Shown here one piece after another: positions 1,874-51,928 of a DNA stretch of 52,383 bases (position 1 is its first letter; every line of letters begins with the position of its first letter). Source of the stretch: Asaia bogorensis (GTDB lineage Bacteria; Pseudomonadota; Alphaproteobacteria; Acetobacterales; Acetobacteraceae); contig NZ_UEGO01000040.1 in the NCBI RefSeq assembly GCF_900465345.1, positions 1 through 52,383 on the forward strand, read 5' to 3'. The notes under the pieces are model-generated. The model saw nothing but the letters and a program-made list of their open reading frames with translations. It was not told the origin of the DNA and made no database searches. The position numbers and the translations under genes were made by a program.

Positions 1874-2213
1874 GATCCGTAAATGGCGGACGGCGCATGC
1901 CGGCGCCAGACTGCGCAAAGGTCTGCTGGATAAAACCAATACGGTCCCCGCAGTATGGGCCGACATGGCCTACCGCTCAAAGGCCAATGAAGACGTCATG
2001 GAAACGCAGAGCTTTGTCTCGAAGGTTCACAGAAAAAAGCCGCATCTCAAACCGATGCCTCAGCATATCCAGAGGGTCAACGCAGGAAAATCGGTCATCC
2101 GATCTCGGGTCGAGCACGTCTTCGCTGATCAGAATTCTCAGACGGGACTGTTCATCCGAACTGTCGGCATGACCCGAGCGATTATGAGAATCGGACTGCT
2201 GGCGGTAATGTAA
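1874..2213 (+). pseudogene. IS5-family-like transposase C-terminal fragment (copy B)
   Basis: In the opposite orientation to copy A, this encodes the C-terminal third of a closely related transposase: IRKW, then GARLRKGLLDK, FVSKVHRKKPHLKPM, SRVEHVFADQ, and a stop after RIGLLAVM. The block between IRKW and GARL is rearranged relative to copy A, and the last residues (LANIVYNMRR in copy A) are replaced. It abuts the IS6 end at 1873. It is a truncated remnant with no intact N-terminal domain. Confidence 0.75.
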
Positions 2214-2257
2214 GATCTAATAGACCCTAGCTTTCAACATAGAAAGCATTCCTCTCC

Positions 2258-2298
2258 GCTGCAACTGCCATGTTTTAGCTATACGTCCTGAGCCTAAC
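2258..2298 (+). mobile_element. Remnant of an IS5-family 3' end
   Basis: The stretch ending gtcctgagccta (to 2298) resembles the last about 40 bases of the IS5-family element at 4581-5414 (shared blocks TGTT, GCTAT and GTCCTGAGCCTA at the same spacing). Only this end is left. It suggests that a related copy once sat beside the bacteriocin genes. Confidence 0.55.
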
Positions 2299-2321
2299 GC
2301 GTAGTCAATTCCGGAAAATTT

Positions 2322-2606
2322 TTAAATAGAAAAAACCACTGTCAACAGAAGAACTGAAGATACCATAAGAAAATCGCTAACAGACCTTTGGCTTTTTTCA
2401 CGAATTTTTCTATTATTCATGTAAGACGAAATAATTATCCAAGAAGCCAAGATCGCCACCAAAGAAACAATAGTGTATGATGACGATTGGGGAGTCGTCT
2501 TCGTTATATTATACGCATGACTCAAAACGCTACATAATGAGCCCAAAAAATATATCAACACGCCACTGCAAATTGCCTGAATTTCTAGACGAATCATGTT
2601 ATTCAT
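2322..2606 (-). CDS. Small membrane protein, candidate bacteriocin immunity protein
   Basis: This 94-aa protein has three predicted membrane spans (about residues 8-28, 45-62 and 80-94) and a basic loop (NNRKIREKSQR) before the last span. I recognise no named family. It lies 63 bp downstream of the GG-leader peptide gene at 2670-2900 on the same strand, with a 19-bp perfect hairpin between them. Small polytopic membrane proteins next to class IIb bacteriocin genes are typically immunity proteins, so that role is inferred from size, topology and position. The region is AT-rich compared with the flanking transposons. Confidence 0.6.
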   Translation of the reverse strand: MNNMIRLEIQAICSGVLIYFLGSLCSVLSHAYNITKTTPQSSSYTIVSLVAILASWIIISSYMNNRKIREKSQRSVSDFLMVSSVLLLTVVFSI

Positions 2607-2616
2607 TCCATGTGCG

Positions 2617-2659
2617 AAATAACACTTGCGTATAGCTTATCTATACGCAAGTGTTATTT
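2617..2659 (-). promoter_or_regulatory. 19-bp perfect hairpin between peptide and immunity genes
   Basis: The arms 2617-2635 and 2641-2659 are exactly complementary over 19 bases with a 5-base loop. The hairpin begins about 10 bp after the peptide gene stop and ends about 10 bp before the immunity candidate start. On the transcribed (minus) strand no clear U-run follows. It is therefore better read as an attenuator or an mRNA-stabilising stem that sets the ratio of peptide to immunity transcript than as a full terminator. Confidence 0.7.
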
Positions 2660-2669
2660 ATAATTATTA

Positions 2670-2900
2670 CTATTCGGCCATCTGTCTTAGCCATGTGGCT
2701 CCAGCCACGAGAGATGCACCACCTACCGCAAATCCAGCCGCCGCACCTGCACCAATCGCTGAACCGGCAATGAACGGTGCTGCTGCGACAGCGGCAGCAC
2801 CAACGATACCATATAATGCAGCCTCACCGGCATATCCCCAGTTCACTCCGCCAGAGATATGATCAAAATCGTCGTCACTGAGGGTCTGGATATCGTTCAT
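2670..2900 (-). CDS. Double-glycine leader bacteriocin precursor (class IIb-like)
   Basis: This 76-aa peptide has an acidic leader, MNDIQTLSDDDFDHISGG, with the classic hydrophobic spacing before Gly-Gly, so cleavage is predicted after residue 18. The mature part of about 58 residues is rich in Gly/Ala with several GxxxG-type patterns (e.g. GAGAAAG) and a terminal WLRQMAE. These are features of pore-forming two-peptide or circular-like bacteriocins. A C39-peptidase ABC exporter encoded at 47447-49561 is the expected processing and export partner. The ribosome site GAAAGG lies about 10 bp upstream of the ATG. No close named homologue is recognised. Confidence 0.8.
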   Translation of the reverse strand: MNDIQTLSDDDFDHISGGVNWGYAGEAALYGIVGAAAVAAAPFIAGSAIGAGAAAGFAVGGASLVAGATWLRQMAE

Positions 2901-3682
2901 TTTGAATACCTTTCGTCAGTTGGTTACACAAAAAATATATTCTGTAATTTTCAGTATTTAATAGTAAATTTTTGGAAATGTTTCGACATTTTTCTAGAAG
3001 TTTTATAGTTACGCTTAGATCCTATTTGGAAACTATGAGAAGTGTGATTCAAGCTCTGGATGTAGGCGCCAGAGCGGAGAGCCAGAGTGGTCGAAATTGT
3101 CCGATAGACGAAGCGTTATCCGTCTGACATGACGGATGAAGAATGAGAGCGGATCACGCCCTTGATGCCGGATTCGGGGCGCATATGTCGACTATGGGAT
3201 GTCGCATTTTGCGAAGTAATCAGTCCAGGGCACTATCCGGTCCGATCTGGGTGTGGATAGCGAATGCTGCCAATTAATTTCGGACACTGGCACGGCGTTA
3301 AGTCAGTTCGGCAACCGAGATGATTGACGGCCAGAGCATCAATGCGCCGTGAGCGCCGCATCGACGTCTCACAGGTCATAACCATCGTCGCCACGGGCGC
3401 TAGCCCCGGAAATGCCGTCCCTTGAAGTCAATCAGGCCAATCGCCCTGCACAAGAACCGGCTGCATGCGTGAATGCCAATTTTGCAATAGAGTTTGTTGT
3501 AATATCTTCGTGTACGGTACCGAAGCCTTCCGTAGGGAGGGTTTAGGAGGACACACTATAAACAGCAATGTCACATTACGGACGAGTCAGTGACCACGCT
3601 CTTTGATATTACAGCTCCCTATACGTTATCATATCGAACCGAAATACCAACCAGAAGCTCGAGCGGGACCTTTTCAACACAA
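2901..3682. other. Gene-poor stretch with IS debris
   Basis: No convincing gene is seen here. Bases 2901-3010 are AT-rich and probably hold the promoter of the minus-strand peptide gene. Around 3130-3300 a frame beginning MTDEE-stop-ERITPLMPDSGR resembles the start of an IS5-type transposase but is full of stops. Bases 3406-3432 match the N-terminal coding end of the IS6 transposase at 1771-1808 (about one mismatch), followed near 3480 by a tttgcaatagag sequence like a decayed IS6 end. The rest, to the start of the membrane protein gene, is not recognised. Confidence 0.5.
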
Positions 3683-4120
3683 TCAACGCCAAAACAGACA
3701 AGCAAAAATTATTATGAGAGAATTACACAATAAATGTGACAGTGATGTTGTCATGAACGCATTTAATCTCATACGGTTTGCACGAAAATAGCATAGCGAA
3801 AAGTTTGCTCCACCCAATAATCCTGGCAGCAGAGCAACAAAAAATCCCCTTCCATCGATATGGATAGTATAAAATAGCAATATAGATGAAATGAAATAAA
3901 TTGATGGTTTCTTGTAAAAAGCCTTGTATATTATATGTTGAAATACAAAAGTTTCAATAAAAGGCGCAATCAACAATCCGGACAAAAGGACAAAAATCAT
4001 ACCATGACTTATGTTGTTGCCACTATCTTCAGGTATATTCAAGGTTGTAGATATTGCATTTGTAATAACTACTAGCGGAATACTATGCTCCGCTAGTAGT
4101 TTTGCTGTTGCGTTTTTCAA
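3683..4120 (-). CDS. CPBP-family intramembrane protein, candidate immunity protein
   Basis: This 145-aa protein has about four membrane spans and the CPBP/Abi layout. FIETFVFQHIIYKAF corresponds to the EExxxR-containing segment but carries ET and lacks the second Glu and the Arg. HIDGRG and a late SHLLCN segment correspond to the His positions. CPBP proteins commonly act as bacteriocin immunity proteins (SkkI/PlnI type). The proposed TTG start overlaps the stop of the upstream peptide gene (TTGA), implying translational coupling; an internal ATG at MIFVLLSG is an alternative. The degenerate catalytic motif argues for an immunity rather than a protease role, which is inference. Confidence 0.65.
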   Translation of the reverse strand: MKNATAKLLAEHSIPLVVITNAISTTLNIPEDSGNNISHGMIFVLLSGLLIAPFIETFVFQHIIYKAFYKKPSIYFISSILLFYTIHIDGRGFFVALLPGLLGGANFSLCYFRANRMRLNAFMTTSLSHLLCNSLIIIFACLFWR

Positions 4121-4287
4121 AAAGAATTGAATCCTTCGTAAACTCCACCAGCAAAATTATATGCAGCTTCGCCACCCTGTAAAACCATTTCCCCAATCTT
4201 CTTCCATGGGATAGCGCCAGATATGAAGTCCAAGTCTTCTATATCTAAGTCAATCAACGGCAGGTCATTAGAAGATAAATCAAGCAT
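4117..4287 (-). CDS. GA-type double-glycine leader peptide (class IIb-like)
   Basis: This 56-aa peptide has an acidic leader, MLDLSSNDLPLIDLDIED, then LDFISGA, which fits a Gly-Ala double-glycine processing site at residues 24-25. The mature part of about 31 residues starts IPWKKIGEM and contains a GGEAAYNFAGG block with spaced glycines, then ends EGFNSF. It overlaps the CPBP gene by 4 bases and lies 20 bp downstream of a third, truncated peptide gene. The paired small, glycine-motif peptides plus a CPBP protein match the architecture of a two-peptide bacteriocin with immunity. The start is the ATG at 4287, preceded by AGGG. Confidence 0.75.
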   Translation of the reverse strand: MLDLSSNDLPLIDLDIEDLDFISGAIPWKKIGEMVLQGGEAAYNFAGGVYEGFNSF

Positions 4288-4307
4288 AGCAACAACCCTA
4301 AAGTTAT

Positions 4308-4418
4308 TTAGGAGATTCCACCATAAGAGGTTGCAACACCATATGCAAAGCCCTTCGCAGCGACGCCAATTACATAACCAACGTCATGGAAAAACCCTGA
4401 ACCCCATGATCCTGTTAT
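4308..4418 (-). pseudogene. Truncated double-glycine peptide gene (partner peptide)
   Basis: The minus-strand frame encodes ITGS, then WGSGFFHDVGYVIG, then a Gly/Ala-rich tail ending YGGIS-stop. ITGS fits the end of a double-glycine leader (GS variant), so the mature peptide of about 32 residues is complete. The leader and start codon are missing because a 38-bp Tn3-family inverted repeat begins at 4419, exactly after the Ile codon. It probably formed the second component of a two-peptide bacteriocin with the gene at 4117-4287. Without a start and leader it should no longer be made or exported. Confidence 0.7.
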
Positions 4419-4456
4419 GGGGGCGTCACATAGAACGGGCACGGATATACGCTAAG
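4419..4456 (+). repeat. Solo 38-bp Tn3-family terminal inverted repeat
   Basis: The segment starts with GGGG and ends with TACGCTAAG, the conserved outer and inner ends of Tn3-family repeats, and is exactly 38 bp. It matches 31 of 38 positions with the repeat at 14732-14769. No transposase belonging to it is found next to it. The element it ended has been deleted, leaving its edge inside a bacteriocin gene. Confidence 0.75.
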
Positions 4457-4532
4457 GGATCCCCCACTGGCGGAACAGTTCGGATCGGGCTTTCCCGAAA
4501 GGGATGGTGAAATGGGAAGGCGGGCATTTCTG

Positions 4533-4573
4533 ATCCTCTCCCGTTGCACGCTTGGCGTACAACGGGAGAGGAT
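4533..4573. repeat. 14-bp perfect palindrome with 13-base loop
   Basis: The arms atcctctcccgttg (4533-4546) and caacgggagaggat (4560-4573) are exactly complementary. The loop also contains a short acg/cgt complement, so the fold can be extended. It sits in the 124-bp leftover between the solo Tn3-type repeat and the IS5-family element, next to no gene start. It may be the terminal hairpin of a lost element or an orphan terminator. Confidence 0.5.
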
Positions 4574-4580
4574 ATGTCGT

Positions 4581-5414
4581 TAGGCTCAGGACCCATTGAT
4601 CTGGGCGGTCGAATATGATTCAGGCTCCTGCGAGGAGACTGGGTATGAGCGACCTGTATTGGCTGACGGACGAGCAGATGGCCCGTCTGGAGCCGTTTTT
4701 TCCGAAAAGCCACGGTAGGCCGCGGGTAGATGACCGGCGTGTGCTGAGCGGCATCATTTTTGTGAACCGCAACGGACTGCGCTGGCGGGACGCACCGTGG
4801 GAGTATGGCCCGCCCAAGACGCTCTATAATCGCTGGAAACGCTGGGGTGCAGCGGGGATCTTTGTCCGGATGATGGATGGTCTGGCGGCGGGCAGGTCAG
4901 ATCACCAGACGATCATGATCGACGCGACCTATCTGAAGGCGCACCGCACGGCCTCGAGCCTGCGGGTAAAAAAGAGGGTGCAGGCCGCCTGATCGGTCGC
5001 CCCAAAGGGGGCATGAATACCAAGCTGCACGCGGTAACGGACAAGAACGGTCGCCCGATAAGGTTCTTCATGACGGCAGGGCAGATCAGCGACTATACTG
5101 GTGCTGCTGCCCTTCTGGATGATCTGCCTGCCGCAAAGTGGCTCCTGGCCGATCGCGGCTACGATGCCGACTGGTTTCGGGATGCCTTGGAGGAAAAAGG
5201 GATCAAACCCTGCATTCCAGGACGAAAATCCCGCGGGAAACCCGTCAAATATGACAAGCGCAAATACCGCCGCCGCAATCGTATCGAGATCATGTTCGGG
5301 CGCCTGAAGGACTGGCGCCGCGTCGCCACGCGCTACGATAGATGCCCTGTCGTGTTCCATTCCGCCATCTGCCTCGCCGCCACCGTCATGTTCTGGCTAT
5401 GAGTCCTGAGCCTA
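4581..5414 (+). mobile_element. IS5-family insertion sequence (IS427/IS1031-like group)
   Basis: The ends are inverted repeats: taggctcaggac at 4581 and its complement gtcctgagccta ending at 5414. The element is about 834 bp and carries one transposase in two overlapping frames. The right flank continues as the interior of an exporter gene (identical to 48671 onward, ctaggggcg). The left flank is unrelated transposon debris. The exporter gene's 5' two-thirds has therefore been lost through this element. Confidence 0.85.
4645..5402 (+). CDS. IS5-family transposase, two frames joined by -1 frameshift
   Basis: The first frame starts MSDLYWLTDEQMARLEPFFP (preceded by GAGGAG) and stops near 4992. 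It holds the DUF4096-type N-terminus and the first catalytic Asp (MIDATYLKAHRTASS). The second frame carries the rest: GRPKGGMNTKLHAVTD, the second Asp in LADRGYDADWF, and the Glu in RRRNRIEIMFGRLKDWRR. At 4968-4974 the heptamer AAAAAAG would shift the ribosome back one base and give the family sequence EGAGRLIGRPKGG. Both halves are otherwise intact, so the element may still be active. Confidence 0.85.
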
Positions 5415-6291
5415 GGGGCGCGAATGGTGCTTTCAGCGGAGATGTCGGTCGGAATGCTGGTGGCTTTCCTGGGTTATCGCGACCAGTTTTCCAGCCGTTT
5501 CGGCAGTCTGGTAACTGCTGGATTCAAGATTAGAAATCTGCGCGTAAAGTGTGACCGACTGTCGGATATTGCGTTGGCCGACGCCGAGGTGTCGGAGGGT
5601 GACAGGGGCTCTAAGCTTGCTGCTTTTCCTGCCTCTGAAACTGAGACTGACGGAGCAGTCCTCGAGTGTCGGAACGTAGGCTACCGGTATGGCAAGGAAG
5701 ATAACTGGGGTTTTTAGAAATGTAAATTTGCAAGTTCCAGCTGGGAAAAGCCTTGCAATCACGGGGCCGTCGGGCTGCGGAAAATCGACATTGTTGGCGA
5801 TCCTGATGGGGTTGGTTCAGCCGGAAGAAGGGGAGGTTCTGTGGAACGGTGTTGTAATCGGACCATCTAACCGCGAAGCATATCGGTCTCAGATCGCGGG
5901 AGTGCTTCAGGACGATATTCTATTGTCGGGTAGTATTGCGGAGAATATTGCGGGATTTGACGAGAATATCGATCTTATCCGAGTGGCGGAATGTGCAAGA
6001 GACGCACAAATTTTAGCCGATATTCAGAGAATGCCAATGAATTTTGATACGCTTGTCAGTGAAATGGGGCACACTCTTTCAGGAGGCCAACGGCAGCGTA
6101 TTATTTTAGCCCGTGCCCTCTATCGTAAGCCTAAAATCCTCTTTTTAGATAAAGCAACTAGCAATCTTGATGTCAAGGCAGAGCAGTCCATTGAAAATAA
6201 TCTTGTTAGCATAGAAACTACGAGGATTATTGTTACGCACCGAGGTGAAACTCTTCAGAGAAGTGGTTATGTATTCGCGATGCAATATTAA
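5415..6291 (+). pseudogene. Truncated, frameshifted second copy of the peptide ABC exporter
   Basis: This is the C-terminal part of a peptidase-containing ABC transporter, homologous to 48673-49555. The N-terminal C39 peptidase and most membrane spans are missing, cut by the IS5-family element. One extra G in ataactggggttt (intact copy: ataactgggttt) breaks the frame near 5710. The nucleotide domain is recognisable (GPSGCGKST, then LSGGQRQR), but the Walker B motif reads LFLDKATS instead of LFLDEATS, replacing the catalytic Glu with Lys. DNA identity to the intact copy is nearly complete to about 5738, then falls sharply. Confidence 0.9.
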
Positions 6292-6414
6292 TTATTTTCC
6301 TAACTTGTTTGTGCAGGGCGGTCTAACGCGGGCCACCGGCGCGCTTCAAAAGTATATTTGTGGTAAGATAATATTTAGCGATCCTTAAATACTTTAATAT
6401 TACTGCCGGTCATG
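6292..6414. other. Convergent intergenic gap
   Basis: This 123-bp gap lies between the plus-strand exporter remnant and the minus-strand secreted protein gene. It contains a short GC-rich block (about 6320-6345) that looks foreign to its AT-rich surroundings, but no recognisable gene or terminator. Confidence 0.4.
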
Positions 6415-7014
6415 TCATTGCTTTTCAATATTTGAAGAAAAGTCTTCTTTTCTTAATCTTTCTGCTAAATCTTTCAGATTCGTAATATTCATAGCATTAC
6501 GCACATTATCCGAAACTAATTCGGAATCAAACGGTTCTCTTGATGCCTCTCCAATAGGATCACCGTTCTTATCTAGGTCATAATGCGTCTGTGTGCCAAA
6601 TATTTGAGGCTTTCCTATCGTTATAAGATAACGATCAAGAGTGGCTGCTGAGATCCAAGAGGCCCTTTTATATCCCTTTGATAGAGATACAATAGAAAAT
6701 ATATGTGCTAGCAAGTAGTTTTTTGGATTACTTCCATGCTGTTCTATGAAGGCGGCCTCATAATAGTCAAGACCTGTCTTTATTCCATTGTTTTTAAGCA
6801 TTTTTTCTACAATAGATATTCTATAATTATCAGCCTCTGAGAGTTTTTTCCAGTTAATGTTTGGAGTGGCGCGGTCAGACTGATCTTCGTGGAAAAGTTT
6901 TTTCAATTCACTGCTGTCATGGCTTATTGCTTCAGCGGAAAAAGCGCTATGGGCGCTGACATTGAAAACAAATATCAGTAACAGTATTGTTGCGGTAGCT
7001 TTAAATTTTAGCAT
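6415..7014 (-). CDS. Secreted DUF6624-like protein of the graspetide set
   Basis: This 199-aa protein has a clear signal peptide (basic start MLKFKAT, hydrophobic core ILLLIFVFNVS, cleavage near SAFSA). The central part, YEAAFIEQHG, then LAHIFSIV, AATLDRYLITIGKPQIFGTQ, resembles the motif set of DUF6624 (H-rich helix, then DR and GTQ). The function of that family is unknown to me. It starts 14 bp after the ATP-grasp ligase stop and so ends a three-gene minus-strand unit. A role in maturation, immunity or target interaction outside the cytoplasm is possible. Family assignment is by motif memory only. Confidence 0.6.
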   Translation of the reverse strand: MLKFKATATILLLIFVFNVSAHSAFSAEAISHDSSELKKLFHEDQSDRATPNINWKKLSEADNYRISIVEKMLKNNGIKTGLDYYEAAFIEQHGSNPKNYLLAHIFSIVSLSKGYKRASWISAATLDRYLITIGKPQIFGTQTHYDLDKNGDPIGEASREPFDSELVSDNVRNAMNITNLKDLAERLRKEDFSSNIEKQ

Positions 7015-7028
7015 GAGGTATTCTCCCG

Positions 7029-7967
7029 CTATTGTCGCAAATATTCCACGATTGCATTTGCGACGTTGTGGGCAGTATTCGAGCCGATAAGTGCATCAAT
7101 CCAGTCCCATTGCCCTGTTGGATTTATATCCAAAAAAATATAATCATCCTCATCGGTTTTTATCATATCAATCACGCCATAGTTTAGTCCAATAAGTCTC
7201 ATGAACAAATTAAGCTTATGGACTAAATCTTTTGGTATAGTGGTCTCGAAAAACATTTCGCGACGTAATGATTCTTTCCTCCAATCAATCACGGCGTGAT
7301 CGTAATTCTGACTATCAATGCCTATCGCGGATATGGACCCAAGACACCAGATCAATCTTAATTCATATTTTTTCTTGATATACTTCTGTATTAAATTAGG
7401 AGCTATTTTGCAAGAGTTCCTGAATGAATCTATATCATGCCTAGTCATTAATGACGTATAAACTATTTTATTTCCAATAAAGGGACTTGATAGGGTTTTG
7501 TAAACAACCTCATCATGCGCAATAGTAAAATTTTCAATCTCGTCATATGAGTTTGAGACGATACTAGGGGGAATTAAAAGACCAGATTCCAATGCTTTTT
7601 TTAGCGCATATACTTTGTATGAGGCTTTATCTTTGTTTGTTTTTTTATCAATCCACAAAGTATCTCTATCAAGTTGCTGAAGGCCCAAAAGAGCATGCAT
7701 CCATTCAGTCCGACAAAAATCTCTCTCGAGGGTTACATTGGAGTCTATATCATCTGGCCAATTGTCTTTGAACATCCAAAGAATAACTCGATTGCTATCA
7801 GCAAGTTTGAAGAAATCTCCACTATTTTGGGGAGAAAAAGAAAAATCTAAGTCAAAATCTCTATCCACGAGGGTTGATTGCGCGCCGATATTCCGTAACG
7901 CTGTTGCTATTGTTTGTCCGTGTGAGTTTGATTTGTCGCAAAAAATTAGAACGCCATCATTCATCAT
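7029..7967 (-). CDS. MvdC/MvdD-like ATP-grasp peptide ligase (graspetide maturase)
   Basis: This 312-aa protein matches the microviridin-type ATP-grasp ligase layout. It has an N-terminal domain ending near residue 110, then an ATP-grasp core with lysine motifs (VVYKTLSSPF), YELRLIWCLGS, GIDSQNYDHAVIDWR, NYGVIDMI, and the Mg-binding stretch FLDINPTGQWDWID. Enzymes of this family close omega-ester or omega-amide rings between Asp/Glu carboxylates and Ser/Thr/Lys side chains of a precursor peptide. It lies just downstream of a 55-aa GG-leader peptide rich in Asp, Lys, Ser and Thr (8032-8199), which is the obvious substrate. A hairpin separates the two genes. Confidence 0.85.
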   Translation of the reverse strand: MMNDGVLIFCDKSNSHGQTIATALRNIGAQSTLVDRDFDLDFSFSPQNSGDFFKLADSNRVILWMFKDNWPDDIDSNVTLERDFCRTEWMHALLGLQQLDRDTLWIDKKTNKDKASYKVYALKKALESGLLIPPSIVSNSYDEIENFTIAHDEVVYKTLSSPFIGNKIVYTSLMTRHDIDSFRNSCKIAPNLIQKYIKKKYELRLIWCLGSISAIGIDSQNYDHAVIDWRKESLRREMFFETTIPKDLVHKLNLFMRLIGLNYGVIDMIKTDEDDYIFLDINPTGQWDWIDALIGSNTAHNVANAIVEYLRQ

Positions 7968-7985
7968 TGTGGCCTTAATATTGTT

Positions 7986-8027
7986 ATCCTCACATGAGTC
8001 ATGGTTAGATATGATTCATGTGAGGAT
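7986..8027 (-). promoter_or_regulatory. 12-bp perfect hairpin between graspetide precursor and ligase
   Basis: The arms atcctcacatga (7986-7997) and tcatgtgaggat (8016-8027) are exactly complementary. Inner bases extend the stem with one mismatch. The hairpin starts five bases after the precursor stop and ends 18 bases before the ligase start. As at 2617-2659, it sits between an abundant-peptide gene and its partner gene, consistent with partial termination or processing that lowers ligase expression relative to precursor. Confidence 0.65.
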
Positions 8028-8031
8028 GCAC

Positions 8032-8199
8032 TTAATCGTTATATTTTTTCGAATTTCCATGGTCATCACTGACCACTATTACCGTCGGCTTGTTTTTTAC
8101 GGGTGTGATTCCCCCGAAGACATCTGACAATTCTTTTTCCGTTAGTGGCTTGACGTCCGACGTTGCGAGACGTACACCCATAGCAATAGTATTTCCCAT
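8032..8199 (-). CDS. Graspetide-type precursor peptide with GG leader
   Basis: This 55-aa peptide, too short for standard gene calling, starts MGNTIAMGVRLATSDVKPLT and continues EKELSDVFGG, a canonical double-glycine leader end at residues 29-30. The core of 25 residues begins ITPVKNKPT and holds VSDDHGNSKKYND, giving Asp acceptors and Lys/Ser/Thr donors for ATP-grasp cyclisation. AAGGGA lies about 13 bp upstream of the ATG. The ligase follows on the same strand after a hairpin. The core does not show the microviridin TxRxPSDxDE motif, so the ring pattern would be different. The substrate role is inferred from position and composition. Confidence 0.75.
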   Translation of the reverse strand: MGNTIAMGVRLATSDVKPLTEKELSDVFGGITPVKNKPTVIVVSDDHGNSKKYND

Positions 8200-8216
8200 T
8201 TTGGATTATCCCTTGC

Positions 8217-8251
8217 TGTATTTTGGTTGCCTATAGTGCAACCAAAATACA
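8217..8251 (-). promoter_or_regulatory. 14-bp perfect inverted repeat upstream of graspetide precursor
   Basis: The arms tgtattttggttgc (8217-8230) and gcaaccaaaataca (8238-8251) are exactly complementary with a 7-base centre. The site ends 17 bp before the precursor ATG, right beside its ribosome site. It could be an operator for a missing regulator, or a 5' leader hairpin controlling translation. Confidence 0.5.
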
Positions 8252-8327
8252 TAGAACCCGATTTGTCGTATCCGTGACAAGAAAAAATTATCTGTCTGGT
8301 TCTGAAATGGGGTGGGTTCCGGCTGAG

Positions 8328-13672: not shown

Positions 13673-14653
13673 TTACGGTTCCTCCTCCACCGCTGTAGAT
13701 GCGACACGCATTTCCGTAGGGGAGGAAACAGTGGCTTTCGGTGGAGGGTAGGGTACATTGGCGGGCGAGAGAAATATCTCTTGGTTCGGTATATCTAGAA
13801 TCATGTTAAATCGATATAGTATGTCCTCACCCAAGATATTTTCTTCGGCGTCTCGCATAACTGCTAATCTCGGATTAGTAACAGTAAAGTCACCTATCTT
13901 AAGTTCGCGAAACTTATGATAAACTCCCAATAAAATATTTCCAGAGGCGGCTCGCATATGGGGATCATTCGCAAAAGAAGAAAATGGAATACCCATAGAT
14001 TTAGCGGTATTCATTGCGACAGCACTATGGTTGGACGTGAATGATATTTTGGCAGCAATGGGATGACCATCTATAACTATGGTAACTTGGTTATATTGCG
14101 GTTTAACATTTCCTGTGTTTACTAGTTTTACTAACGTACTATTGGGTAACATATTTCCTATACTTGGACAGTTTTCTCCTCCATACTTGAATATATAGAA
14201 GTTCTGATTCGAACTATCTATATATTCAGAAAACAAAGATAAGATGTCATACCCCACAATGCCGAGAGCCTCAGCGGATCTAGCTTCGGAAATCTGCCGT
14301 TTATCGAAAGTTAAAACCCTCACATTGGTGATATCAAGAGGACCCAATTTGAGAGAATTTAGATCCGCTTCAGATGCCACACCAAAACCGGTAAAATTAT
14401 AGTATTCTGTGTTGAACAATGATTGTAACCAAAGTCCTCTGTGCTGAAATATGGTTGTTTTAGTAGAATATGGTGAAAAGAAAAGGTGTGATGAGATACC
14501 GTTCAATGTTGCGGGAATAAGGGGAGATCCTCCTTTGTTAGACATAGGCAGTATGATAGTATCATGAATACATCGCTGTATATCACTGCCAATGACTGAC
14601 TTCGGAATAAGCATAAATCCGACGAGGAAAAGAGAGGTTCTCGCGCTTTTCAT
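13673..14653 (-). CDS. Secreted retropepsin-like protein lacking catalytic DTG motifs
   Basis: This 326-aa protein has a signal peptide (MKSARTSLFLVGFMLIPKSVIG). Two repeated halves follow the layout of bacterial retropepsin-like aspartyl proteases: strand-loop starts LIPATLNGISSHLFF and VTIVIDGHPIAAKISF, and flap/helix blocks ALGIVGYDILS and NILGEDILYRF. At the places where D-T/S-G should appear the sequence reads FFSPYSTKTT and SFTSNHSAV, so both active-site aspartates are missing. It may be a binding or decoy protein. It is AT-rich like the bacteriocin genes and may share their origin. Confidence 0.65.
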   Translation of the reverse strand: MKSARTSLFLVGFMLIPKSVIGSDIQRCIHDTIILPMSNKGGSPLIPATLNGISSHLFFSPYSTKTTIFQHRGLWLQSLFNTEYYNFTGFGVASEADLNSLKLGPLDITNVRVLTFDKRQISEARSAEALGIVGYDILSLFSEYIDSSNQNFYIFKYGGENCPSIGNMLPNSTLVKLVNTGNVKPQYNQVTIVIDGHPIAAKISFTSNHSAVAMNTAKSMGIPFSSFANDPHMRAASGNILLGVYHKFRELKIGDFTVTNPRLAVMRDAEENILGEDILYRFNMILDIPNQEIFLSPANVPYPPPKATVSSPTEMRVASTAVEEEP

Positions 14654-14731: not shown

Positions 14732-14862
14732 GAGGGTGACACATACAACGGGCACAGATATACGCTTGGCTTATCGGAAAACACCTGTTTGCCGAAGCCG
14801 GAAGAATTTTCATTTAAGTTCATTGGTCTGTTCGTGAGCGTATATCTGTGCCCGTTGTATGT
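14732..14862. mobile_element. Tn3-derived miniature inverted-repeat element (TIME-like)
   Basis: Positions 14741-14766 and 14837-14862 are 26-bp perfect inverted copies of a sequence with the Tn3-type inner end (agatatacgct). The left copy extends outward to GAGGG at 14732 as a 38-bp repeat similar to the one at 4419. The right copy is cut at 14862 by the next transposon. About 70 bp without coding capacity lies between. Such elements are moved in trans by Tn3-family transposases. Confidence 0.65.
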
Positions 14863-23243: not shown

Positions 23244-24122
23244 TTATTTGCTCCATGGAAGGAGGTCGTCATCGGCATTTATCCAGCTTAGCGCCTGCAT
23301 CTCGGCAGCGATCCAGTCGATGGACTGATCATGTGATCGCCCAAGCTCGATCGCATGTGGAGCAATGCGGCTAGGCATAATCGCCTGTACAGCTTTCGTC
23401 GGGAGGGCCAGCCCACCCGCGTCGACGGGACGGCTCAGCATGCCGAGCGACGTTTCATGCTCCGCTGGGTCGAGGCAATGGGCGATCGATGTCTTTAGGA
23501 CGCGCGTCAGTTGCATGGCATGCACGGGGTGACGTTCCGCCCAAGTCTCGGTCACGACGCACTGCTTTTCCAGATGACCTGGCTTGATAGCTGCCGATCC
23601 GCTAACGATTCGCCCAAGTCCAGCCTGTTCCGCGGCAGTGCCCCATGGCGGTCCAGCGCAGAAACCATCAATTGTCCTGTTTGCCAGTGCTTCCAGCATC
23701 ATATCGGGCGGCATGATGATCAGATGTTCGAGCGCGCGCGGGCACTGTGCGAGCAGATACCGCCTCAACAGCAGGAAATGCGTCGAATAAGGGTGAACAA
23801 CTGCCATGCATGGTGCAGACCTCTCAAGATAAGTCTGGTCGCGCAGAACGATCGTGTTGCCACCGAAGGACAGATCGGCAACAACCCGTAACGGTGTCGG
23901 TCGGCCACGCTTACCCAGATAGGTCATGATCGCAAGCGGCGGGAAGACCACGGCCGCGTCCAGCCGTCCCCAGCTCAACCCGTCCGCGATATTGGCCCAT
24001 GACGGTTCCACCACGATGTCAGCTTCAATATCGGCCTGCGCGAACAGGTTTTTCTCATGAGCCATGAGAATCGGCAGACTGTCAGCTAACCGCAGGAGGC
24101 CGATACGAAACGGAACGCTCAT
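23244..24122 (-). CDS. nasS: NasS-like nitrate sensor protein
   Basis: This 292-aa protein resembles NrtA-type periplasmic nitrate-binding proteins but has no signal peptide (starts MSVPFRIGLLRLADSLPILMAHE), as for cytoplasmic NasS. Ligand-domain blocks include LSWGRLDAAVVFPPLA, VHPYSTHFLLLRRYLL and DGFCAGPPWGTAAEQAG. In nitrate-free cells NasS holds the antiterminator NasT; nitrate or nitrite releases it. It is the last gene of the operon, overlapping nasT by ATGA. Confidence 0.85.
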   Translation of the reverse strand: MSVPFRIGLLRLADSLPILMAHEKNLFAQADIEADIVVEPSWANIADGLSWGRLDAAVVFPPLAIMTYLGKRGRPTPLRVVADLSFGGNTIVLRDQTYLERSAPCMAVVHPYSTHFLLLRRYLLAQCPRALEHLIIMPPDMMLEALANRTIDGFCAGPPWGTAAEQAGLGRIVSGSAAIKPGHLEKQCVVTETWAERHPVHAMQLTRVLKTSIAHCLDPAEHETSLGMLSRPVDAGGLALPTKAVQAIMPSRIAPHAIELGRSHDQSIDWIAAEMQALSWINADDDLLPWSK

Positions 24123-24700
24123 GACTTCGGCCCCGGAGCCTTACGGTCGAGATACTGATGACAGATATCGACCATGCGGCGTCCATCCTGCATCGCGCGC
24201 TTTTGGAACCATCGATGGGCGGCGGCCTCACTGGTATTTTCAGATTTCATGAATAGTCTCTTGGCTTGATCGATTGCTGCGCGATCAGACAGATGGCGCT
24301 GTGCATCGCTCAGGGCGCGCGCCTGGGCCTGAAAGCGACCGAAAAGTGCTATTGCCGCTCTCAGTAGCGGCTTGACGTCGTGTGGGAGGGTCTCAATCAC
24401 GTTATAGGAGCACACACCTGCATCAAAGGCTTCGCGCATCAGCGCCTCGTCATCCCGATCAACGAACAATGCGATTGGGCGATCCGTGCCTGCCCCAGCC
24501 AGCACGCGTACACTGTCAAGCGCATCGCGATCCGCACGGTCCAGATCGACCAGCACAATATCGGGTTGCACCATCCGCACCGCATCAAGCAGGGTCATGC
24601 CCGGTTCGGGCCGCATGACCGTCAATGCTGCATCGACACTCAGTATGTCTGAAAGGGCGACGGCACGACGAGGACTGGAATCGGCGATCAAGACACGCAT
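24119..24700 (-). CDS. nasT: NasT-like ANTAR antiterminator
   Basis: This 193-aa protein has an N-terminal receiver-like domain (MRVLIADSSPRRAVAL, then DIVLVDLDRAD) and a C-terminal ANTAR RNA-binding domain (RAAIDQAKRLFMKSENTSEAAAHRWFQKRAM). ANTAR proteins bind paired hexaloop hairpins in leader RNA and prevent termination. A matching hairpin lies upstream of narK (34275-34294). The gene starts 3 bp after the nitrate reductase stop. Confidence 0.88.
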   Translation of the reverse strand: MRVLIADSSPRRAVALSDILSVDAALTVMRPEPGMTLLDAVRMVQPDIVLVDLDRADRDALDSVRVLAGAGTDRPIALFVDRDDEALMREAFDAGVCSYNVIETLPHDVKPLLRAAIALFGRFQAQARALSDAQRHLSDRAAIDQAKRLFMKSENTSEAAAHRWFQKRAMQDGRRMVDICHQYLDRKAPGPKS

Positions 24701-24703
24701 GCC

Positions 24704-27700
24704 TTAATAGACATCCCTTGCATATCGTCCGGACCTCGTCATTTCATCCACATATCCCGCCGCTTGCGCGGGTTCCATATTCCCATGCTGCTCAATGATT
24801 TCGCGCAGGCACAGATCGACATCGCGAGCCATGTGGCTCGCATCGCCGCAGACAAAGACATGTGCGCCACGCGCGATCCAGTCCCATAAGGCAGGGCCAG
24901 CGGCCTTCATGCGATCCTGAACGTAGATGCGAGCCTCTTGATCACGCGAGAAGGCCAGATCGATCCGGGTGAGGATCCCGTGTGCCTGCAACGCCGCGAG
25001 TTCGTCGCGATAGTAAAAACCAGAGGCTGCATTGCGTTCACCAAAAAATAGCCATGCTTCGCCAGGTGCCCTCATGGCTGCGCGATGCTGCAGGAAGCCA
25101 CGGAATGGGGCGATACCGGTGCCCGGTCCGATCATGATGATTGGGGTCGCGGTATCGTCTGGCAGACGGAAGTGTCCGGATTTCTGCACGAACAACGCCA
25201 CATCTGCACCGATCTGCAGTCCCGCGAGCCAAGGCGAACATGTTCCGGGATAGGGCTCGCGCACGACCCCCACCGTGAGATGGACTTCGCCCGGATGGGC
25301 AAGAGGTGAGGACGCAATGGAATACAATCTTGGCTGCAGCCTGCGGAACAGGGTCGGAATCTTGTCCAGCGTGATCGCGCGCCCAGCGGACTGAAGCATC
25401 TGAGGCAAATACCCCGATTCTACCTCAAGATGCTCTTGCATGGCGGTATTGGCTCGCGACAGGTCAAAATGAGTCGTCAACGCCTCGCGTAATGTCACAG
25501 TACCAGACAATGGCAGATCGATTGGTGTTTCACCTTCGTATCCAAGGGCACATAATACTTGGTCGACGACCTCGACCCGATTGTGCGGCCAGACACCCAA
25601 AGCATCGCCTGGCTCATAGGCAAGATTTGTTTGCGCAATGTCGAATCCGATCAACCGTGTTTGCCGGCTGGCGCCTTCGGGCGTCAGCAGAACATTTTGG
25701 CACAGTTTCGCTATTACGGGCGTATTGCGTGGAGTGAGCGTAATGGTTGCAGGAGGGATCGACGCGCTGCTTTCTCCTAGGATCGCGCATAACCGTGCTT
25801 GCCATTCGGCGCGGCCGACGTCGTCATCAGGCTCGCAATCGTAGCGTCCCTGCAGCGTCTTGCTCCCAAGTTCCGCCAGTCGAGCATCCAAAGCGCGACC
25901 GAAACCGCAGAAATTCGCGTAACTCGAGTCCCCGAATGCTAGCACGGCATGGCGCATGTCGATGATCGGTGTGGAACGGGCCTGAAGCGCACCCCAGAAT
26001 GAGGCAGCGCAATCGGGGGGATCCCCATCCCCGAATGTCGACACGACAAAGATTATATTCCCTTGGGGCAAATCATCAACGCTGGCTACATCAAGGCAGA
26101 TGCATCGGCCACCCAGTGCAGCAGCTAGCCCTTTAGCTGCGTCTTCCGCTCGTCCGGTCTGAGAGGCCCAGAATACCGTCGGATGCGGGGAGTACGTTTC
26201 TAAGTTGTTCATCGGCGCGTCATGCGGTTTGCGTGCATACAGGCCTGCCAGCAACCCATCGATCCGCAAGCGTTCCGTCTCGGAGAGCGGCGCGCGATGC
26301 GGCACGACCGGTAAATCATCCGAAGGGGGCGATAGGCGTAAGCCTTCGAGAAAGCCTGCAAGCCAGTGCTGTGCCATCTCTGACAAGGGAGCCGATGCTA
26401 TCTCCCCGACCTTCAACTGAGCTGCAAGGCGAGAAACAATGTCTAACTCTGGCATAATTATAGGCGCTGCTACTCGCGTTAGGTTGACCGCACACAGCTT
26501 GAATCCGGGCTGGAGCGAGATCGGATCGACCGCGTCAGGCGTCAGGACATTAACCGCCAGATCCGCTCCGAACGCATCGTTCCAGTGAAACGGGGCAAAA
26601 CACACACCCGGCGGCACACGGTCGCTGATCCGGACAGGCAAGGTCGCCGACCCGCGACGCGACCGGATCAGCACACGATCGGCAGGATCGAGCGCCAGAT
26701 CGTGCGCAGTATCTGGATGCACCTCCAGAAACGGCTCCGGATGCAGCTTGCACAAGGAGTCGACCGTGCCTGTCTTGGTCAGCGTGTGCCAATGATGCTG
26801 CAGACGACCCGTATCCAGCACAAACGGATACGTTGCATCCGTCCGTTCGCCCTTTTCCAGAAAAGGCCGCGCAAGAAACACGGCCCGACCGTCATCGGTT
26901 GCAAACCGCGGACCCGACCGTGGATCGGGCCGGTAACGGATCGGGTGACGTGCCTTCGAATCGCCGGGGGGGCTCGGCCACTGAACCGGACCCTGCATCA
27001 GCCGCGCATGACTGATTCCTGAAATATCGTAGCCCGTCCGGGGGTTGGCAAACCCGGCCGCCTCGGCAAATACCTCGGCGGCACTGGTAAAATCGAATCC
27101 TTCATATCCCATGGCGCGCGCGACACGGGCTATAATGTCCCAGTCCGGCAAAGCCTCGCCTGGCGGCGGCACAGCGGCACGTGTCAGGGTCATGGTCCGC
27201 TCGGAATTGACCTGAACGCCATCCCCTTCAGCCCAAAGGGCACCAGGCAGAAGGATGTCGGCATAGGCCGTCGTTTCCGCACTCCTGAAAGCGTCCTGCA
27301 CAATCACGCATTCCGCCTTCTGCAATCCGGCAATCACGCCATCGCGTCGCGCAACGCTTGCCACCGGATTGGTACAGATAATCCAGACCGCCCTGATCTC
27401 GCCCCGGGCCATCGCCTCGAACAGGCCGATCGTTCCGAAACCCTCTGCCTCGCGGATCGTATCGGGCGGTAGCCCCCAGACTTTCTCGGCAAAAAGACGA
27501 TCCTCTGCCACCATTGCACTGCGCTGACCCGGCAGACCCGGCCCCATATAGCCCATTTCCCGGCCACCCATCGCATTGGGTTGACCTGTCAGGGAAAACG
27601 GACCGCTGCCGGGTTTGCAAATTGCCCCGGTCGCCAGATGCAGGTTGCACAGCGCGTTGGTATTCCAGGTTCCGGTCACACTCTGGTTCAGCCCCATGGT

Positions 27701-28582
27701 CCAAAGGCTCATCCAGGCCCCCGATTCCGCAATCCAGTAGGCAGCCTGCTTGAGATCGTCGATGGCAATACCCGTCGTTTCGGCCACCTGCTCAGGCCCG
27801 TACTGCGCCAGAAACGGGACCATTGCCTCCCATCCTCGGGTATGAAGGGCTATGAACTCCCGGTCGATTGCATCCCAGGCCAGAAGCAGATGCAGGATAC
27901 CGTTCAGCAGGGCAAGATCGGTTCCCGGCCGGATCTGAAGAAACAGATCGGCCTTGTCGGCTGTCGCGGTCCTGCGCGGATCGACCACAATCAGCCGTGC
28001 GCCCTGCCGCTTGCGATCCAGCAGCCGCAGGAACAGGATCGGATGGCAGTCCGCCATGTTCGCACCGATAACGAAAAACAGATCGGCGTGATCGAAATCC
28101 TCATAGGAGCCGGGCGGAGCATCCGCGCCCAGCGAGGTTTTGTATCCTGCCCCTGCAGACGCCATACAGAGGCGCGAATTGGATTCGATATGCTGCGTGC
28201 GCCAGTACCCCTTGGCCAGCTTGTTGGCGAGATACTGCGCCTCCATCGTCATCTGACCGGATACGTAGAGCGCCAGAGCATCCGGCCCGTGCGCATCGAG
28301 AATGGCACGCAACCGCTGCGCCGTCCGCCCGATCGCATCTTCCATGTCCAGACGCTGCGGCTCCGCATCCCGCGCAGGCCGGATCGCCGCATGGGTCAAC
28401 CGACCGGGTGCTGTAATCGGCTTGTCACAGGAACTGCCCTTGGTGCAGAGCCGCCCGCGATTGGCCGGATGGTCCGGATCGCCGCGCAGCTTCACGATCC
28501 GGCCAGCCTCAACCTCGAAAACAATGCCGCAACCTACTCCGCAATAGGGACAGGCCGACCGGATGGCATCAGGCAGGGCCAT
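24704..28582 (-). CDS. nasA: Assimilatory nitrate reductase fused to a CysJ-like diflavin reductase
   Basis: This 1292-aa enzyme reduces nitrate to nitrite. Residues 1 to about 690 form the molybdopterin oxidoreductase: the [4Fe-4S] cysteines at CPYCGVGC near the N-terminus, GRLCTKGSS, and a C-terminal dinucleotide-binding domain ending near GFKLCAVN. From about 795 there is a flavodoxin domain (VFWASQTGRAEDAAKGL), then a FAD-binding domain (RLYSIASSPLAHPGEVHL) and an NAD(P)H domain (IGPGTGIAPFRGFLQHR, then FVCGDASHMARDVD). Usual NasA stops near 870-900 aa. The fusion would let NADPH electrons pass within one chain. It starts 6 bp after nirBD. Confidence 0.92.
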   Translation of the reverse strand: MALPDAIRSACPYCGVGCGIVFEVEAGRIVKLRGDPDHPANRGRLCTKGSSCDKPITAPGRLTHAAIRPARDAEPQRLDMEDAIGRTAQRLRAILDAHGPDALALYVSGQMTMEAQYLANKLAKGYWRTQHIESNSRLCMASAGAGYKTSLGADAPPGSYEDFDHADLFFVIGANMADCHPILFLRLLDRKRQGARLIVVDPRRTATADKADLFLQIRPGTDLALLNGILHLLLAWDAIDREFIALHTRGWEAMVPFLAQYGPEQVAETTGIAIDDLKQAAYWIAESGAWMSLWTMGLNQSVTGTWNTNALCNLHLATGAICKPGSGPFSLTGQPNAMGGREMGYMGPGLPGQRSAMVAEDRLFAEKVWGLPPDTIREAEGFGTIGLFEAMARGEIRAVWIICTNPVASVARRDGVIAGLQKAECVIVQDAFRSAETTAYADILLPGALWAEGDGVQVNSERTMTLTRAAVPPPGEALPDWDIIARVARAMGYEGFDFTSAAEVFAEAAGFANPRTGYDISGISHARLMQGPVQWPSPPGDSKARHPIRYRPDPRSGPRFATDDGRAVFLARPFLEKGERTDATYPFVLDTGRLQHHWHTLTKTGTVDSLCKLHPEPFLEVHPDTAHDLALDPADRVLIRSRRGSATLPVRISDRVPPGVCFAPFHWNDAFGADLAVNVLTPDAVDPISLQPGFKLCAVNLTRVAAPIIMPELDIVSRLAAQLKVGEIASAPLSEMAQHWLAGFLEGLRLSPPSDDLPVVPHRAPLSETERLRIDGLLAGLYARKPHDAPMNNLETYSPHPTVFWASQTGRAEDAAKGLAAALGGRCICLDVASVDDLPQGNIIFVVSTFGDGDPPDCAASFWGALQARSTPIIDMRHAVLAFGDSSYANFCGFGRALDARLAELGSKTLQGRYDCEPDDDVGRAEWQARLCAILGESSASIPPATITLTPRNTPVIAKLCQNVLLTPEGASRQTRLIGFDIAQTNLAYEPGDALGVWPHNRVEVVDQVLCALGYEGETPIDLPLSGTVTLREALTTHFDLSRANTAMQEHLEVESGYLPQMLQSAGRAITLDKIPTLFRRLQPRLYSIASSPLAHPGEVHLTVGVVREPYPGTCSPWLAGLQIGADVALFVQKSGHFRLPDDTATPIIMIGPGTGIAPFRGFLQHRAAMRAPGEAWLFFGERNAASGFYYRDELAALQAHGILTRIDLAFSRDQEARIYVQDRMKAAGPALWDWIARGAHVFVCGDASHMARDVDLCLREIIEQHGNMEPAQAAGYVDEMTRSGRYARDVY

Positions 28583-28588
28583 ATCGGC

Positions 28589-38182: not shown

Positions 38183-38361
38183 GAAATGCATGTCTCCGCC
38201 AATCCTGCCAAAAAGCGTTCCCGAAGTGTCGGTGCTCAGTGAGAGCGTAGGCTTACGAGTGTGGACGTAGTCTAGAATTGCGTGATCTGAAGTTTTTCTA
38301 AGACAACATCACAAATCTAGGTTCATTCCTCTGAGTATTATCAACAACGGCGAGAGCGGAT
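38183..38361. other. Origin-proximal spacer
   Basis: It links rep to the iterons and holds no gene. The sequence is AT-rich in its second half. Confidence 0.4.
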
Positions 38362-38445
38362 CGACACTTCAGGAACAGTTTGCCGACACTTCAGGAACAG
38401 CCGGATCGACACTTCAGGAACAGTTTGCCGACACTTCAGGAACGG
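38362..38445 (+). repeat. Iterons of the replication origin (oriV)
   Basis: Four copies of cgacacttcaggaacag start at 38362, 38384, 38407 and 38429; the last ends cgg. Spacing is 22-23 bp, two helical turns. Copies 1-2 and 3-4 share the spacer tttgc, so the array is itself a duplicated pair. The next 85 bp are AT-rich and carry TTATCCAGA (38487-38495), close to a DnaA box, which fits an initiator-loaded melting region. Confidence 0.85.
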
Positions 38446-44484: not shown

Positions 44485-44597
44485 GTATTATTTCTGCTTA
44501 TTTATAAGTAATTATCTGGATCTATGATTAAAATGAATATTTACATATATGTTAAACGCTTGCATATTATAATAAAACAATTAAGTATAACAATTAC

Positions 44598-45962: not shown

Positions 45963-46103
45963 GCATTGATGATGGATTTTTCTGAAAATTGTCTGTCATC
46001 CCACGATGTCTTATTTCTTGATTGTTGTCTGAAACCTCCTAATCTATCAATCTAGTATCGATAGATTGTTTTCTGATTTTTCGGTTGAGCCTGTGAGGGA
46101 ATT
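45963..46103. promoter_or_regulatory. Divergent promoter region tolC/hlyD
   Basis: This 141-bp region lies between the TolC start (minus) and the HlyD start (plus). It includes an inverted repeat aatctatc/gatagatt (46041-46067 region), a possible shared operator. It is AT-richer than the genes on both sides. Confidence 0.45.
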
Positions 46104-49561: not shown

Positions 49562-49647
49562 GAAATAGTGGGAGCAGTCCCGAATCTCGATCCTCCCAGT
49601 GTCTGCGTTTACCATTCCCGACTTGACATGAAATTCCCTGAACCCAA
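49562..49647. other. Short spacer downstream of exporter
   Basis: It contains the weak stem tgggag/ctccca near 49568-49600, which may end the exporter transcript. No gene is seen. Confidence 0.4.
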
Positions 49648-49880
49648 TTAAAAAACTGAATGAAAAAACATCATCACGAAAATAATTGACGACACATAAA
49701 AAATCGCTTGCATATGGAGGGATCGAAGAACCGTTGGTTGAAGCATCTGGCTGGTGATTTTGGGCTTTTGTCGTACTGACTGACGGCACCCGAGGTGGCT
49801 TTTGGTTTGCCTTTTGGGCAGATTGGGCGCTGTTTCCTCCGGAATGGCTACGCGCTCGCGTTCGGCCTCTCGAGAAAGAG
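49648..49880 (-). pseudogene. C-terminal end of the IS5-family transposase (copy A), split by IS66
   Basis: The minus-strand frame from 49880, EREAERERVAIPEETAPNLPKRQ, joins in frame to the fragment that ends FLFL at 258 when IS66 and one target copy are removed. It then runs into non-element sequence before a stop at 49648. The exact IS border was not found. Confidence 0.7.
49873..49880. repeat. IS66 target-site duplication, left copy
   Basis: The octamer agaaagag immediately precedes the IS66 end at 49881 and matches 250-257. Confidence 0.93.
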
Positions 49881-49907
49881 GTAACCGTCCGCTCAAGGCC
49901 GCGGTGT

Positions 49908-51518: not shown

Positions 51519-51580
51519 GCCGAAAGAATAGCAGAGAACTGGCGGAATTCGGCGGTTTTAATCCGGTTTCGATCGAAAAA

Positions 51581-51928
51581 TCACGCTACTCGCGACGGCG
51601 GCGCCGACCAGGCTGGCCGTCTCCAGTCCATCCCTTCCCATAACATGGCGACCTGTGCCGCGGTCAGTCGCGCGACCCCGTCGGCCGGTGTCGGCCAGGG
51701 AAAACGTCCTTGCTCGAGCACCTTGTAATACAGGCAGAAGCCCTGGCCGTCCCAGGTCAGCAGCTTGATCCGGTCACCGCGTCGGCCGCGAAACGCAAAG
51801 ATCGCACCCGAACTCGGGTTCTGCCGCAATGTGTCCTGCACCAGGGCGGCCAGCCCCCCGATGCCCTTGCGCATGTCGGTGACACCGCAGGCCAGATAGA
51901 TCCGAGCGCCACTCGCCAGCCCGATCAT
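51581..51928 (-). CDS. tnpB: IS66-family accessory protein TnpB
   Basis: The protein is 115 aa with IYLACGVTDMRKGIGGLAAL, then GAIFAFRGRRGDRIKLLTWDGQGFCLYYKVLEQGRF (positions 51705-51815), the typical TnpB/Orf34 sequence. Its start overlaps the tnpA stop (ATGA). Confidence 0.92.
   Translation of the reverse strand: MIGLASGARIYLACGVTDMRKGIGGLAALVQDTLRQNPSSGAIFAFRGRRGDRIKLLTWDGQGFCLYYKVLEQGRFPWPTPADGVARLTAAQVAMLWEGMDWRRPAWSAPPSRVA

Follow-up and report, generated by a model that had tools for sequence, protein, structure and literature searches.

A plasmid-borne peptide export island in Asaia bogorensis with one intact type I exporter and likely cargo exchange at the exporter 3' end

We analyzed a complete 52,383-bp contig (NZ_UEGO01000040.1; hereafter the window) of the Acetobacteraceae genome of Asaia bogorensis, which carries a plasmid-borne island joining genes for peptides with double-glycine (GG) type leaders to an ATP-binding cassette (ABC) exporter trio. 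The trio lies at 44598-49561, as the first-pass annotation had placed it. It comprises a TolC-like outer-membrane channel (44598-45962, minus strand; an open reading frame (ORF) with 69% identity to the TolC of the corresponding trio in genome G387), an HlyD-like periplasmic adaptor (ORF at 46104-47447, plus strand; 63-73% identity to five syntenic relatives) and a Peptidase_C39 ABC exporter predicted to cut GG leaders and export the peptides (47444-49561, plus strand; PF03412 127.5 bits, with ABC_membrane and ABC_tran domains). The Cys/His/Asp catalytic, Walker A/B and signature motifs of the exporter were all intact. With peptidase, membrane and ATPase domains and HlyD and TolC partners, it is a C39 peptide exporter (peptidase-containing ABC transporter, PCAT) in a type I system. 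Its C39 domain was the only one found in the genome, and therefore all GG peptides of the strain would have to share this exporter.

The contig ends share an exact 249-bp overlap (1-249 and 52135-52383). An IS66 element at 49881-52383, whose part at 52135-52383 is the repeated one, closes the circle with terminal repeats GTAAC...GTTAC, and the 8-bp target duplication AGAAAGAG was present on both of its sides when read across the contig ends. Besides the end overlap, IS66 matched the assembly once more, in a 166-bp stretch at 78%, and no second full copy was found in the genome assembly. Because the overlap, the terminal repeats and the target duplication are those of one insertion, circle closure at IS66 is sound, and the earlier proposal that closure brings the exporter to about 5 kb from the peptide genes held. 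On the closed circle the order is TolC (minus), HlyD (plus), C39 (plus), IS elements and then minus-strand cargo convergent with the exporter, at approximately 5.2 kb from the exporter end to the first peptide gene. Transposase remnants (IS5-like and IS6-like ORFs, families named by eye) occupy 246-2213 between exporter and cargo, and within them 310-566 and 1920-2176 form an inverted 257-bp similarity.

A GG-leader pattern ending by residue 32 was observed in 3 of 533 window ORFs of 30-140 amino acids (aa), all within the island, whereas 200 rounds of shuffling this region gave 0.09 on average and never more than 1. Four such genes had been proposed; those at 2670-2900, 4117-4287 and 8032-8199 are intact, whereas the fourth, at 4308-4418, has lost its leader. 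The gene at 2670-2900 (minus strand) encodes a 76-aa bacteriocin-like peptide with leader ...LSDDDFDHISGG and is accompanied by a gene for a 94-aa membrane protein with three hydrophobic segments (2322-2606, minus strand), a candidate immunity protein for which profile searches gave no family match. A relative of the 76-aa peptide was found in genome G295 (62% over residues 7-54, E 1e-8), with a gene for a 102-aa hydrophobic-looking protein coming after it on the same strand and the exporter approximately 185 kb away on the same contig.

The gene at 4117-4287 (minus strand) encodes a 56-aa, lactococcin G-beta-like peptide with a GG(GA) leader. Its match to NF038034 (E 0.0024, 18.1 bits) lies under the cut-off of 37 and thus falls short of class IIb by profile. 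Overlapping it by 4 bp is a gene for a CAAX-protease/Rce1-like protein (3683-4120, minus strand; PF02517 27.1 bits, cut-off 22.4), a second immunity candidate, with relatives in 11 of 397 family genomes, the strain's own included. At these relatives (10 short loci, 7 of them in longer stretches) no convincing GG-leader peptide was found, apart from a few chance-looking pattern matches, and tblastn of plasmids with the 56-aa and 76-aa peptides gave no match. The broken gene at 4308-4418 (minus strand) encodes a leaderless partner peptide with two GxxxG motifs, the mature part of which follows ...ITGS. In place of its leader stands a 38-bp end repeat (4418-4455), presumably of the Tn3 family judging from its form, which begins about four codons ahead of the expected cleavage site. 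The 25-bp core of this repeat recurs, with 2 mismatches each, as an inverted pair at 14741-14765 and 14838-14862, and short similar stretches occur in 36 plasmid records. One of the two partners thus being broken, the class IIb-like pair of the first-pass annotation did not survive as a set of two complementary peptides with GG-type leaders. Because the alpha-like partner has lost its leader, the two-peptide set is probably dead.

The third intact peptide gene belongs to a putative graspetide module. The 55-aa precursor (8032-8199, minus strand; leader ...LTEKELSDVFGG) occupies a position like that of a 55-aa GG precursor in G387, and its core ITPVKNKPTVIVVSDDHGNSKKYND holds Ser, Thr, Lys and Asp, although a conserved core could not be shown by comparison with G387. 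The ATP-grasp ligase (7029-7967, minus strand) is MvdC-like, at 152 bits to TIGR04185 under an equivalog cut-off of 425. Its four best NCBIfam matches, all under their cut-offs, were ribosomal-peptide ATP-grasp models, and it contains the DINPTGQW motif; together these features place it in the graspetide branch of ATP-grasp ligases. The exported protein at 6415-7014 (minus strand) gave no direct Pfam match, and hence none at the PF20329 gathering score. Two plasmid relatives (34.5% and 41.3% identity) match PF20329 under its cut-off (E 0.034 and 2.6e-4), and the protein is similar (E 6e-4) to a DUF6624 protein of G387 that itself scores 53.4 bits to PF20329. It is called DUF6624-like only, because a match of its own is absent and those of its relatives are weak. 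Candidate immunity genes or putative tailoring genes do stand beside the peptide genes, as stated earlier.

The whole window was scanned for hairpins (stems of at least 13 bp, at most 1 mismatch, loops of 3-10). Five strong hairpins were detected, all within 2.2-8.3 kb, and none in each of 20 region shuffles. Each intact peptide gene has one of them directly at its 3' side (z -6 to -8), and all three are on the minus strand: 2617-2658 behind the 76-aa peptide gene (19-bp perfect stem, z -7.8), 4065-4102 behind the 56-aa peptide gene (z -6.1) and 7986-8026 between the graspetide precursor and ligase genes (z -6.3). The others are located upstream of the precursor gene (8217-8250, minus strand, z -5.3) and between the Tn3-type end and an IS5 element (4533-4572, 18 paired bases), the latter with no intact gene adjoining. 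Among 14 related loci, a hairpin stood 5-48 bp behind a GG peptide gene in 8 (stems of at least 12); loci L069, L070 and L071 had none at all, in L062 (G387) and L076 the peptide gene had none nearby, and L066 yielded no GG gene. These hairpins may act as attenuators, through which more of the peptide would be made than of the downstream product.

The G+C content shows a step, from 50-54% across the exporter down to 36-46% for most bins of the cargo. None of the 8 other genomes of the genus held the close form of the exporter; an HlyD match was obtained in 3 of these 8, always at 40-42%, and the trio of the window therefore looks acquired. Such a history, together with one broken peptide gene, one broken exporter (described below) and at least four traces of mobile elements in 8 kb, would fit a decayed island, with relic cargo merely riding on the plasmid and an exporter serving other substrates or none. 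We consider this improbable, since the ligase, the precursor, the exporter trio and the 76-aa peptide with its neighbour are all intact, hairpins have been kept directly 3' of each intact peptide gene, and the genome yielded no other C39 exporter. It also seems unlikely that the peptides act as signals or protease inhibitors, with Ala/Gly-rich peptides serving communication and the graspetide a microviridin-like inhibitor. Microviridin, the founding graspetide, is described in a passage of PMC8939145 as a serine protease inhibitor, and no peptide of the island matches a bacteriocin model above a cut-off; on the other side, small membrane or CAAX-type proteins paired with the peptides fit immunity, and the lactococcin G-beta model was the best, though weak, match for one peptide.

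The first-pass annotation had described a single locus served by one exporter. As regards the sole C39 domain this is correct, but a truncated, frameshifted remnant of a second C39 exporter, corresponding to the ATPase end, was identified within the island itself (5415-6291, plus strand; TIGR03797 E 7.8e-59 for the open piece). It stands directly behind an IS5-family element (4581-5415, plus strand) recognized from plasmid records: identity across roughly the whole element was 79.5-81.9% in the ten listed of 626 matching records, and 8 of these ten carried the annotation "IS5 family transposase". The remnant is convergent with the graspetide genes, and this arrangement repeats that of G387, where TolC (minus), HlyD (plus) and C39 (plus) are followed by ATP-grasp, DUF6624 and GG-leader precursor genes (all minus). 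The G387 C39 protein is 81% identical to the intact exporter of the window; the order of the ligase and DUF6624-like genes differs between the two. A 21,871-bp contig of Gluconacetobacter azotocaptans LMG 21311 holds the same kind of locus. Because remnant and graspetide genes together repeat the G387 layout, this synteny suggests that the graspetide unit brought an exporter of its own, the present single exporter being what remains. The island would then combine two units, each an exporter with its cargo and one of these exporters a relic, instead of being a single designed locus.

The remnant is a mosaic. At 5462-5701 it is 99% identical (238/240) to the intact exporter gene, within a near-identical stretch of about 290 bp in all; past 5701, identity is 94% over the next 120 bp or so, 82-90% over the next 120 and 41-72% from there to the end. 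A comparable pattern was seen among whole exporters. Genomes G387, G277 and G337 share one genus code, that of Gluconacetobacter azotocaptans. Their exporters and that of the window are 84-93% identical over residues 160-420 and 37-60% identical over residues 640-700, and the tail drop was significant in 6 of 6 pairs (Fisher p 5e-5 to 2e-16; members recur across these pairs, which are therefore not independent). The four exporters lie beside four different cargos: the class IIb-like set in the window, a graspetide in G387, GG peptides with retropepsin-like proteins in G277, and, in G337, a GG peptide of 109 aa beside a protein of 74 aa. Third-position G+C in the last 60 codons was 17-30% in G387 and G277 and 10-27% in G337, whereas the gene or its body has 65-68% and the two ligases 35-36%.

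In controls, no drop was observed in 21/21 pairs of seven Bombella-type (g33) exporters or in 36/36 pairs of nine more distant exporters, the tail-to-body ratio of these 57 within-group pairs, which are likewise non-independent, being 0.87-1.20; between-group pairs were computed and left out of the control count. Compared to Bombella-type exporters, the tails of G277 and G337 drop to 37-48% and that of G387 less (57-61%). For G387 and G277, third-position identity changed from 0.74 to 0.50 at codon 459 (maximum chi2 35.2, versus at most 15.1 in 300 shuffles). This breakpoint test speaks for the G387/G277 pair only, because most exporter pairs are saturated at third positions.

These results suggest that cargo is exchanged by recombination inside the exporter 3' end. 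They could also be produced without exchange if the C-terminal 60 residues evolve fast, by relaxed constraint or by co-adaptation. We looked for topological proof of tail exchange without obtaining it: the tail tree groups the tails of the window, the remnant and the Gluconacetobacter type on long branches (84/89 support), and an ordinary clade was not rejected (approximately unbiased (AU) test p 0.244), for which reason fast divergence retains some probability. The tail of G070, outside the clade, was also low compared to several exporters (45-61%). Fast divergence by itself nevertheless appears somewhat unlikely to us, as the largely silent third positions of G387/G277 also show a break in identity near codon 459, third-position G+C in the tails of G387, G277 and G337 falls to the level of the cargo or below, the plasmid remnant is an outright mosaic, and the drop was absent in 57/57 within-group control pairs.

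Several further observations weigh against a peptide export island with exchangeable cargo. The exporter tail of the window is not AT-rich, its third-position G+C falling from 57% to 43%; it shows no drop compared to Bombella-type exporters (68% in the body, 65-70% in the tail), and its third positions are saturated with respect to its relatives. The identity of the remnant declines in steps with no single sharp break, and its tail is equally close to those of G387 and of the window (59% each). The control pair Bo118/Bo211 gave a borderline break at the very end (18.3 versus 16.2), and G362 differs in cargo from others of its genus code with its tail unchanged. The window and G387 ligases are merely 32% identical, their precursors could not be aligned by BLASTP, and no hairpin follows the G387 precursor. 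Finally, profile searches gave no database match above a cut-off for any peptide of the island.

On balance, we favor a plasmid-borne GG-peptide export island with one type I exporter, the cargo of which is exchanged by recombination at the exporter 3' end, with a probability of roughly 0.7. According to this model, TolC, HlyD and the C39 exporter would cut the leaders and export the products of convergently encoded cargo units: the 76-aa bacteriocin-like peptide with the small membrane protein as immunity candidate; the two-peptide class IIb-like set with its leaderless alpha-like partner; and the graspetide, in which the ATP-grasp ligase would cross-link the precursor core before leader removal. 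IS activity may have removed most of the graspetide unit's own exporter, in which case the intact exporter must serve all cargo. Cargo units would be swapped by homologous recombination inside the ATPase-coding 3' end, so that the last codons of the gene travel with the cargo; this exchange is likely but unproven.

The exporter family was widespread in related genomes, with matches (E<=1e-120) in 71 of 397 family genomes, own included. At 23 of 33 exporter loci a GG-leader ORF lay within 5 kb, compared to 4.2 expected (five shuffles each); these 33, examined in longer stretches, were mostly the best-scoring ones. Among the Bombella-type loci the TolC-HlyD-C39 trio was present in 7/7 and GG-leader ORFs within 5 kb in 6/7. 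Ligase matches (E<=1e-10) were obtained in 9 of 397 family genomes, own included, and a ligase stood beside a trio-type exporter in two of the nine, G000 and G387. Co-occurrence with the exporter, which had been named as the check on the proposed locus, was thus found for the graspetide part, in one other genome. The small ORFs beside the other seven ligases, some of which are on short contigs or near contig ends, showed no convincing shared precursor, several of the contigs being short.

Individual loci differed in their layout. In G277 (L063, 11024-14595), the exporter lacks the first ~70 residues and has no intact C39 start; behind it lie two GG-leader ORFs and a pair of retropepsin-like proteins, one matching above its cut-off and the other slightly under, with an 18-bp hairpin behind the first GG peptide. 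In G337 (L140, 910-1523), the exporter is split over two contigs by an apparent IS, and the 109-aa GG-leader peptide and the 74-aa hydrophobic-looking protein lie behind the exporter tail; no convincing relation of this pair to the 76-aa peptide and its neighbour was found. In genome G246 (L074, 12720-14963), an HlyD-C39 exporter has a tandem array of five GG-leader peptides (100-115 aa) upstream.

Elsewhere on the plasmid, ParA/ParB-like and RPA-type replication genes and a 1000-aa TraA-like ORF (named by eye) were detected. Two exact 42-bp direct repeats directly 3' of the RPA-type replication gene (38357-38443) may be iterons. Nitrate/nitrite assimilation-type genes occupy 23244-31474 (NMT1-like, molybdopterin reductase with flavodoxin domains, nitrite/sulphite reductase domains). 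The protein encoded at 13673-14653, in a low-G+C stretch adjoining the inverted pair of the Tn3-type repeat, looks secreted and carries a retropepsin-like domain (PF13650, 40.2 bits). It shows weak similarity (20%, E 5e-6) to the neighbour of a GG peptide in G277 and is possibly a third, displaced cargo unit. The island had no close DNA relatives in plasmids, megablast of 2200-8300 and 44500-49900 having listed transposase-type stretches only.

Each kind of gene in the island is known. The class II microcin-like systems of Gram-negative bacteria, in which GG-leader peptides go with type I exporters of the C39 kind and which Dirix is said to have described in 2004, also bring together C39-ABC, HlyD, TolC, peptides of this leader type and small membrane proteins; here, by contrast, modified and unmodified cargo are mixed and placed convergently downstream of the exporter. 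With the lactococcin G-type class IIb systems the island shares two adjacent small GxxxG peptide genes, one of them with a GG-type leader, and then an immunity-like gene; it differs in its Gram-negative host, a profile match under the cut-off and one leaderless partner. By weighted frequency, PMC8939145 puts the C39 peptidase/ABC transporter at the top of the graspetide-ligase-associated genes, with HlyD also frequent, and it states that the peptidase is not typically encoded in graspetide loci. In PMC13097080, DUF6624 is given for graspetide groups 18, 20, 23 and 42, and NHLM-type transporters for groups 2, 8, 14, 16, 18, 20, 21 and 23. From these associations, the graspetide unit appears to be of a described kind. 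Likened by gene content, it resembles groups 18, 20 and 23 of PMC13097080 (ATP-grasp ligase, DUF6624-like protein, GG-leader precursor and a C39 transporter nearby), with the difference that the exporter is shared with unmodified peptides and the host is an acetic acid bacterium. The novelty first suggested for the island is accordingly reduced, as graspetides with leader-cleaving transporters already appear in both papers. Among the loci examined, none besides this one brought a graspetide and plain peptides together at a single exporter.

The exchange model, in contrast to the genes, is new. We found no literature on a graspetide in Acetobacter and nothing related on cassette exchange of exporters; the passages available from the paper on gluconacin, a Gluconacetobacter bacteriocin, include none on leader or transporter. 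Contact-dependent inhibition (CDI) and Rhs toxins have orphan modules, which are similar in that a displaced 3' fragment lies beside its own cargo and a near-identical stretch could serve recombination, and dissimilar in that the shared gene here is an exporter and not the toxin itself. What is added is evidence for the joining, breaking and re-joining of exporter and cargo within the exporter 3' end, documented by the orphan tail on the plasmid.

More tentatively, at somewhat less than even odds, the peptide cargo of acetic acid bacteria in general may consist of exchangeable cassettes anchored on the exporter, with displaced ones left as orphan tails. A cassette would comprise the ATPase-coding 3' end of the exporter itself and convergent peptide, immunity or modification genes. 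The stretch at 5415-8199 would be a displaced cassette, an orphan exporter tail with its cargo using the intact exporter in trans, and in this way one exporter could alternate between unmodified bacteriocins and enzyme-modified peptides, or come to serve both. Annotation tools appear to have overlooked this repertoire: parts of PMC8776678 report no ribosomally synthesized and post-translationally modified peptide (RiPP) clusters in Asaia or in the Saccharibacter-Bombella clades, and parts of PMC9147383 no bacteriocins in Bombella by BAGEL4, compared to the GG-leader ORFs at six of the seven Bombella-type exporter loci. Should the exporter indeed serve both the graspetide and the plain peptides, the plasmid would be a compact natural test of C39 cargo tolerance. 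These findings suggest a way for a bacterium to alter the peptide weapons that it secretes while its exporter stays the same.

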